This document shows, one piece after another, positions 87-64,000 of a stretch of DNA of 64,000 nt. This DNA is from Dehalococcoidia bacterium. Its GTDB lineage: Bacteria; Chloroflexota; Dehalococcoidia; Lucifugimonadales; Lucifugimonadaceae. Below the pieces are notes generated by a model that saw only the letters and a list, made by a program, of their open reading frames with translations, was not told where the DNA came from and ran no database searches. The translations under genes were made by a program, and so were the position numbers. The stretch is taken from assembly GCA_022819585.1 (NCBI GenBank), contig JAJEGY010000006.1, positions 47,340-111,339 of the forward strand. Reading direction: 5' to 3'. How positions within the stretch are numbered: the stretch's first letter is position 1; every line of letters starts with the position of its first letter.

Positions 87-115
87 TTGACATCCCGACA
101 TTGTACGTAGTACAA
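87..115 (+). promoter_or_regulatory. putative sigma70-type promoter for the GC-rich non-coding region A
   Basis: TTGACA at 87-92, then after 18 nt TACAAC (-10-like); resembles the element at about 63235 upstream of region B (acttgacaNcNcCnACAT..tacgta). Confidence 0.45.
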
Positions 116-117
116 CA

Positions 118-1010
118 GTAGACAGAAGCCCGGACCGGCGGCGGTCGGAAAGGGCGACGAGAAACATCGTCGCGTCTTCAGGAAGCGTGCACAACCCTGA
201 GTGACGCCATCGATTTCAGTCTCAGCGGTCTGCAGGCGGGAGCACACATGGAGGGAGGAGAGCAAATGTCCGAACCGACGGCCAAGATCCGCGGCGGCAC
301 GCGCACGAATCTCTCCGCGCCGGTGCCCGCACTCGCCCCCGACGGAGGGCGGAACGACGACCTTAAACAAACCCCGGGCGACGGGGGATCAGGTGCAGCA
401 AGGTACGGATGCGCGGCCGAACTGCGGGACCGCGCCGCGGCTGAGGCGGAAACCGCCGAAGCCGCGCCGGCCAGACGGGATGCCCGCACCCTCTTGACGC
501 GAGAGGGCGCGGCCGGAAGGACGTCTAGTAAAAACGTCCCGACGGATACAGGCCCGGTGAAGATTCGATACGAGCGGTCCCTTATGCCCACCACGTCGTC
601 CGCTTCGGCGGGCGGACGGCCACAGCGCTCAGCTTCCAGTGAAGAAGGAAGTGAAGACGAGAGACACCGGGCAGCCCGCCCGACCTCTCAACAGTCAGGC
701 GGTTCATGGCAACGCCGGCGGCGCTGGAAACCTGCGAAGCGCAGAAAACGTCGCACGCGATCTGGAGACGCGGCGATGATTCGACCATACAGTTCCAGCC
801 ATGACCCATGGCTGCCCTCCCAGGCGGGAGATACGGCCCGAGGACGAAACATTTCGGACGACGAAGATGCGGGGCGTCCTCGACAAGAGGAATATATCCG
901 AGGGACGGAAGGCGGAGGCGCGGATGATGAGGCGCTCTCTCGCTGGAGAGGGGCGGTTCAAACGAACAAAAGGGTCAACCACAGAAACAATCTGAACAAC
1001 AGCTGAAGCA
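118..1010 (+). ncRNA. candidate large structured non-coding RNA (copy A)
   Basis: No protein-like ORF despite open frames. Many perfect hairpins: 154-160/167-173 (GCGACGA/TCGTCGC), 445-449/453-457, 489-494/502-507 nested in 467-472/511-516 (CCGGCC/GGCCGG), 519-524/534-539, 597-603/612-618, 797-803/807-813, 817-821/826-830, 839-846/875-882 (CGAGGACG/CGTCCTCG), 937-941/946-950. A-rich tail. Confidence 0.5.
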
Positions 1011-1192
1011 GAACAACAAGACCGACCAGCACCGGAGGCCATCCCTGATCGGCCTCCCCGAAGCCCGACGGAAAAAACACCCGTCAGGCGATTAAACGCG
1101 CCCAAGCCCCTTTCGCAAAGCGAAGGGGGCGCGTGAGCGCAACGAGAGCGGGGGATGCCCGCGAAAGGGAACCTAAGGACGAACAGCCAGGA

Positions 1193-4195: not shown

Positions 4196-4267
4196 ATTGC
4201 AAATCTACGTGTGGAACTTCAATGCGGCCGCGCACCCCAAGTTCGGAACCACGTTCGAACATGACAA

Positions 4268-4490
4268 AGGCCTCGGCTCGAATCAGATCACCTCGCGTCG
4301 CCCAAAGTTGACCGCTTACCGCTGCTTCCTTCCGGACCTGACGGGGTTCACGAGACTCTGCCGCGCAAGAACCCGACTCTCAGCACCGAGCATCGAATGC
4401 CAGGGGTTCGAACTGCGAAACCTCCATGAGGATTCCGGCCCTGCTGAGCGGATTGCAGGTTCAGGGCACCGCTAGCTCCCCGCTTGGCAC
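4268..4490 (-). ncRNA. ffs: signal recognition particle RNA, large bacterial type
   Basis: Minus strand contains GTGAACCCCGTCAGGTCCGGAAGGAAGCAGCGGTAAGC (helix 8/apical motif) and the upstream Alu-domain-like GTGCCCTGAACCTGCAATCCGCTCAGCAGGGCCGGAATCC. Ends are approximate. Confidence 0.88.
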
Positions 4491-4573
4491 GACCGCATCT
4501 TTGAATCGTAAACCATCAACCCGATTTCAACGTATCGGCTTATACAAACGCCATCTTTTTACAGGAGGGCAAC

Positions 4574-63087: not shown

Positions 63088-63126
63088 CCCCTCTCCCGCT
63101 GGGCGGGAGAGGGCCAGGGTGAGGGC
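63088..63126 (+). repeat. palindromic repeat family 2, copy 1
   Basis: CCCTCTCCCGCTGGGCGGGAGAGGGCCAGGGTGAGGGCG. Confidence 0.82.
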
Positions 63127-63233: not shown

Positions 63234-63262
63234 TTGACAACACCAACATACGTATTAATATA
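63234..63262 (+). promoter_or_regulatory. putative sigma70-type promoter for region B
   Basis: acTTGACAacaccaacatacgtatTAATATaga: TTGACA with TAATAT 16 nt downstream (TATAGA also possible). Confidence 0.5.
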
Positions 63263-63269
63263 GATAACA

Positions 63270-64000
63270 GTTTGATCGACAGACTTGCGCCGCGCAACGG
63301 AAGCGGCCACCCCCAGCCCGGGGAACCATCGGGAAAAGCGTCAGCCGCGAAAGCGACTGCGATCAGACCCTCCGAAAGAGGACGAGACCGTAGAGCCGCC
63401 GAAACGGCTGTGGCGACGCCCCCGCAGCGGCTGCCGAGTCGCTGAAAGGAGAACCGGGTCCTGTTGGAAGCGCACCTCGGACCATTGTCTCAGCCGCGGC
63501 GAGCAGGGCTGTCCAGTCGCCGCCGGTCCGGAAGGACCAAGCCGGTCAGCGCCGAAGCCGCAGAGAAGCGGCATCGGCGAAGGGGCTCGGGAGGACGTGC
63601 GTGGATGCAGGGAGACGTCGTATTCGCTCGCCACGGGGACGGCTACAGGTTTCAGGCCGAAAGGCCGATGGAAGGCGACGAACTCGTCAACCCCCTCCGA
63701 GGGGGAGACCCCACGTCCCCTCTCCCGCTCCGCGGGAGAGGGCCAGGGTGAGGGCGCCGTCGTCGTCCGGGCAGGAGCGCTGGCAGCTCCCGCAGAACCT
63801 GGATATGGGACGGATCCTGGTGTCTGCCCCGCCAAACGGCGCAAGTCGACCGCGGATTTACGGTGCAGTGACGCGTAAACGCTGCACCGTCGAGAAGCGG
63901 AGCAAAAGTGCGTAACTCCGAAGCAGGAGCCGTGCAGAGCACACGGCCCTCCTTCGGCCGCCACCGTAAGTCCGAAGGGCGCATCGCAAGGCGATCGCGG
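63270..64000 (+). ncRNA. candidate large structured non-coding RNA (copy B, continues past window end)
   Basis: Dense hairpins with GNRA-like loops: GGTCC-GGAA-GGACC (63525-63538), GCCGA/TCGGC enclosing GCCGC-AGAGAA-GCGGC (63551-63578), GGCC-GAAA-GGCC (63655-63666), CCCCCT-CCG-AGGGGG; shares GGACGGCTACAGG (63637-63649) with CGACGGATACAGG of region A (540-552). Confidence 0.5.
63717..63756 (+). repeat. palindromic repeat family 2, copy 2 (inside candidate ncRNA B)
   Basis: CCCTCTCCCGCTCCGCGGGAGAGGGCCAGGGTGAGGGCG. Confidence 0.85.

Follow-up and report, generated by a model that had tools for sequence, protein, structure and literature searches.

To our knowledge, only a small number of large structured RNAs have been described in bacteria, and most of them are without known function. 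GOLLD and ROOL are located in phages or prophages, near tRNAs. Together with OLE, these two are described as large ornate bacterial RNAs (PMC12286853). The window analyzed here, a stretch of 64,000 nucleotides (G000:C11:47340-111339) that ends at the end of its contig in an assembly of 42 contigs and 2.47 Mb (G000), carries two loci, A and B. They belong to a superfamily of at least five families (A, B, C, E/D2, and F) sharing a core, with RNA genes of roughly 0.75-1.05 kb. Rfam 15 scans of the window and eight loci with other copies, at the gathering threshold and at a permissive E-value, gave no match at A, at B, or in those eight loci, and literature searches returned no description of RNAs of this kind from Dehalococcoidia or SAR202. 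As no catalogued RNA matches and all seven sampled genomes of the genus carry the family, this appears to be a large bacterial RNA of a new class.

Two covariance models underlie the comparison of A and B. R2 was built from A-type sequences only, with window A left out, and R3 was rebuilt from the R2 matches, still without B or window sequence. The features of the two loci are as follows.

63234-63261, forward strand: predicted sigma-70-type promoter of copy B, read directly, with -35 TTGACA at 63234-63239, a 16-nt spacer, and -10 TAATAT at 63256-63261.
63265-64000, forward strand: copy B, a large RNA of the B family, truncated at 64000; near-full G000 copies are 83-91% identical.
63579-63803, forward strand: superfamily core domain in B, an R3 match broken up by an inserted palindromic repeat.
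63697-63756, forward strand: genus-wide palindromic interspersed repeat in a peripheral core loop (the helix-4 loop of the covariance model alignment), with short matches at many places in the genome.
63761-64000, forward strand: part of the B 3′ domain, defined by its consensus structure and running off the contig.
87-116, forward strand: predicted promoter of copy A, with TTGACA at 87-92 and a weaker -10 around 108-116.
117-1089, forward strand: copy A, a divergent A-family member in the same superfamily as B (leave-one-out nhmmer, E=5.4e-16; R2, trained without this copy, E=1.7e-12).
557-728, forward strand: superfamily core domain in A (R3, E=1.6e-11).
1090-1102, forward strand: 3′ tail motif GATTAAACGCGCC of copy A, following a GACGG/CCGTC hairpin; other copies of families A, B, C, and E have the same hairpin with ATTAAACGCGYC at their ends.

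Copy B is incomplete, because window and contig both end at 64000. Other B copies reach about 95-110 nt beyond this point, and a full B-type RNA gene measures 860-890 nt, with about 10 copies in G000. By BLAST, near-full copies were located in G000 contigs C32, C28, C31, C15, C16, and C2, in addition to partial copies, one with the 5′ part in C33 and others with the 3′ part at the ends of several contigs. The aligned B copies have a common stretch from the promoter, which is kept in all of them despite a diverged spacer, to a hairpin at the 3′ end (GGGCTGAAAAGCCC or a variant of it), after which comes AATTAAACGCGYC. A second B subtype is found at C9, the start of C30, and the end of C24, and diverged B copies are present in the species G006 (JAJEAU01, Dehalococcoidia MAG jk18x7bins.79), where they are 95-97% identical to each other and 66-76% identical to the G000 copies; B copies are more alike within species than between species. 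Across eight copies, the consensus structure of the B 3′ domain scored z=-7.9 relative to column-shuffled alignments. An initial B 3′ alignment had yielded a poor RNAalifold structure, and consensus z-scores were weak (0.7, -1.7, and -2.1) for the B middle and A domains taken on their own.

Region A, from promoter to tail motif, spans 87-1102 and is alignable over its length with the A family, whose copies are present in G000, G006, G005, G002, and G001. The motif GATTAAACGCGCC occurs a second time at 1191-1203, on the other side of a ~90-nt palindromic repeat, as if this repeat had been inserted beside the A tail with a 13-bp duplication. Genus-wide palindromic repeats, of a GGGAGAGGGCCAGGGTGAGGGCG type and a second GAAGGGGGCGCGAG.. 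type, were seen at 63697-63756, at 63092-63126, and in many intergenic places; at the first of these positions, as an example, a REP-like repeat is inserted into a variable loop of an RNA gene. Early cross-species matches at B-query 462-529 consisted only of interspersed palindromic repeat and were discarded. The window also contains a bacterial large SRP RNA on the minus strand at 4228-4492 (Rfam, 148 bits).

Sequence profiles of A and B do not detect one another, and the link between the two is visible only via a structure model from intermediate families. In addition to window A, R2 matched families E and D2 with E-values of 6e-16 to 8e-19 and families F and C at 1e-6. The model rebuilt from these matches recognized B copies at L064 (1.4e-10), at L012 (3.8e-7), and in the window (63579-63803, 4.5e-6; E=1.1e-7 in an unfiltered 4-kb search). 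As a covariance model containing neither B copies nor window sequence matches both loci, A and B are paralogs. A short core profile, also made without B or window A, ranked A 571-628 first and B 63588-63648 second in the 64 kb, at weak E-values of 0.15 and 0.21. In the R3 alignment, compensatory changes were present in 23/30 pairs of the core and 91.4% of cells were paired, with a covariation score of 0.515 compared to 0.204 for shuffled alignments (0/500 shuffles) and no more than 0.09 when the pairings were slid. This alignment was fitted to the model structure, and hence the counts are biased towards that structure, with the slid and shuffled controls lying far off. The shared fold is established for a core of 166 positions.

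The first-pass annotation had proposed that both loci follow similar TTGACA promoters, which are indeed found at positions 87 and 63234, and that both are rich in hairpins; folding of both loci is better than that of dinucleotide-shuffled sequences (z=-3.2 for B and -3.6 for A, against -0.2 for a coding control). A structural alignment scoring no better than shuffled sequences had been named beforehand as one of two refuting outcomes, and the covariation of the core beat the shuffles. The ordered block said to be common to A and B was correct in part. A common core exists, at B 63579-63803 and A 557-728, but the block quoted for A at about 479-551 (GACGGATACAGG) is in the wrong register and non-homologous. 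The corresponding motif is ACGTCG-hairpin-GGACGGCCACAGCG near 595-628 in A and ACGTCG-hairpin-GGGGACGGCTACAGG at about 63611-63648 in B. With the A block shifted to 557-728, the reading of A and B as covarying ncRNA paralogs stands, since R3 matches B copies and the core covariation exceeds its controls, the two being members of different families of one superfamily. The second refuting outcome, a lack of further copies or homologs, did not occur either, as more copies were found in G000 and homologs in 7/7 genomes of the genus.

R3 counted 27 copies in G000, 23 in G006, 17 in G005, 10 in G002, 6 in G004, 2 in G001, and 1 in G003. As most G000 B copies score below the R3 threshold and add to the 27, there are about three dozen loci in G000. 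Roughly a dozen of its 27 matches are F-like by score, and F-type 5′ ends were read directly at two places only (C21 end and C11 start). The tail motif TTAAACGCG occurred 27 times compared to 15 for the reversed control, and searching with it yielded two more families, C (C35, C18, and C5) and A-type copies (C3, C13, C9 end, and C17). When 250 genomes of the order were scanned with R2, matches were obtained in 7/7 genomes of the genus, with one marginal match (E=0.007) among the 243 others. Two matches outside the genus, in G035 (R1, E=4.6e-5) and G193 (R2, E=0.007), were treated as chance, R3 being not significant at either locus. Many contig breaks in the G000 and G006 assemblies fall within RNA copies, so copy numbers in draft genomes are lower bounds and the fragmentation of assemblies of this genus is partly explained. 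The copies are no assembly artefact, because G005 is a single contig with 17 of them.

Each copy has its own predicted promoter, and the copies would be independently transcribed RNA genes. A spacer block resembling ACATnCGTAnTAATAT after TTGACA is conserved at A, at B, and at other copies across the genus, and a pattern of promoter plus AGTTCA box was matched 34 times across five of its genomes, compared to 6 times for the reversed control. In copies of several families, the -35 element is directly preceded by a box resembling CATCC(T/C)AGTTCA, as seen at copy B (upstream of 63234) and at copies in G000, G002, G004, G005, and G006; the box also lies elsewhere in intergenic DNA. The families have in common the core motif ACGTC-hairpin-GGCYACAG. 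In A, E, and D2, ATCGCCGC is conserved on the 5′ side and GCGGCGAT on the 3′ side, and motif inspection suggests that these could pair and thereby close the molecule in these families. A terminal hairpin with ATTAAACGCGYC ends most A, B, C, and E copies, and variants differ, for example in C32 and the G006 A copies.

Comparison of flanks showed that the RNA family at a given chromosomal site may change from one species to another. At C3 and C19, G000 carries A, and both G005 and G004 carry E; the C35a site carries C in G000 and A in G005, and the site upstream of the 16S gene carries C in G000 and B in G006. In G006, the two C35a flanks adjoin two different A copies, and the C6 flanks are likewise divided between two A copies. 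This exchange is most simply read as gene conversion or ectopic recombination, in which dispersed copies would overwrite one another, and such overwriting may be why the family at one intergenic site varies from species to species. At the A1 site, family D is found in G005 and G004, and G006 has no copy, with flanks too diverged to define a junction; as the site is empty there, individual copies are dispensable. Family D (L239 786-1570 in G005 and L242 in G004) is a promoter-led element of ~0.8 kb, 89% identical between the two species, which R3 does not recognize. Judged by reading, the otherwise empty site in G006 (L241, G006:C21) encodes a small putative toxin-antitoxin pair, one protein being RelE/HigB-like and the other an XRE-type regulator. 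Truncated remnants were found at C24b, C29b, and G006 C21b.

We lean, with only slightly better than even confidence, towards a dispersed, independently transcribed superfamily of large structured ncRNAs in one Dehalococcoidia genus, abundant and acting in trans. Selection on the RNA is supported by promoters that have been kept, by covariation of the structure both within families and between them, and by retention across the genus. Its product would most likely be an abundant scaffold, or the RNA part of a ribonucleoprotein or an RNA oligomer, a role modeled on that proposed for OLE, GOLLD, and ROOL. We regard as possible, with clearly less confidence, a functional cassette-like RNA class in which divergent families at shared sites, with a common promoter and 3′ end, are exchanged by recombination; this would provide the cell with a set of large RNAs to switch between.

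The main rival, which we consider unlikely but worth serious weight, is that the RNAs are products of non-autonomous mobile (selfish) elements, with a transposase or reverse transcriptase supplied from elsewhere recognizing both the fold, of RNA or DNA, and the hairpin plus TTAAACGCG end. Such elements would account for dozens of dispersed copies, growth in copy number, rearrangements, species-specific near-identical sets such as the G006 B copies, truncated remnants, the empty A1 site in G006, and a 3′ end common to divergent bodies. However, the left border upstream of the promoter is variable, an unsystematic look revealed no terminal repeats or target duplications, and the promoter is kept, whereas simple retroposition of the transcript would lose it. 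Several sites (C3, C19, and C35a) are also common to species in the same orientation, and the families are far diverged yet maintain a covarying structure.

That the copies are cis-acting leaders or regulatory RNAs for downstream genes is improbable. ORF calls place a codirectional gene downstream in most of the B and C cases inspected, but these genes, named by reading, appear unrelated (GGT-like, MlrC-like, OTC-like, enolase-superfamily, and 16S rRNA), some copies face convergent genes (A1, C6, and C42), and every copy ends in its own hairpin. Repeated protein-coding genes are more doubtful by far. Although A has an open frame of 252 aa at 248-1006 and long frames also occur in A copies of G005 and G006, a frame length that about 5/300 shuffles reach in A1 and in G005, the frame differs between copies, and the G000 copies carry stops and 1-nt indels. 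Over a 240-codon frame in six G006 A copies, variable columns fell 37/40/38 by codon position with no third-position bias, and a protein-coding reading of A was rejected as contradicted by these statistics. Equally remote is an origin in chance GC-rich hairpins, in interspersed palindromes, or in an assembly artefact. Palindromic repeats are common here and lay behind several early matches, but covariation, the 17 copies in a single-contig genome, and shuffle-controlled folding already contradict this.

The RNA superfamily described here is absent from Rfam and, as a gene family, unusually abundant, with 17 core matches in a single-contig genome of 2.6 Mb and 27, plus most B copies, in G000. 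Natural sequence diversity already gives strong covariation, and families are exchanged at shared sites. The superfamily is ready material for structure determination.

Comparison with known systems places the superfamily apart from each of them. Like REP/MITE-type repeats, the copies are dispersed, non-coding, and hairpin-rich, but they are about ten times longer and have a promoter and a covarying multi-helix core. ORF-less group II introns are also large folded RNAs with many dispersed copies, whereas the RNAs described here have their own predicted promoter, end in a 3′ hairpin, lie in intergenic DNA, and have no Rfam group II match. Ribosomal RNA operons resemble them as multi-copy structured RNA genes whose copies are more alike within a species and lie at rearrangement breakpoints, but the sequence is unrelated, and the superfamily has many divergent families and far more copies. 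With regard to phages, in which no record similar to B was found, viral contigs were searched with the B motif and core pattern, and the pattern matches L297 and L298 had no R3 match at the pattern sites; the copies inspected are chromosomal and intergenic. OLE, GOLLD, and ROOL are alike in size class, in elaborate covarying structure, in being non-coding, and in their poorly understood function, and the superfamily differs from them in matching no Rfam entry and in comprising dozens of chromosomal copies, with several families per genome.
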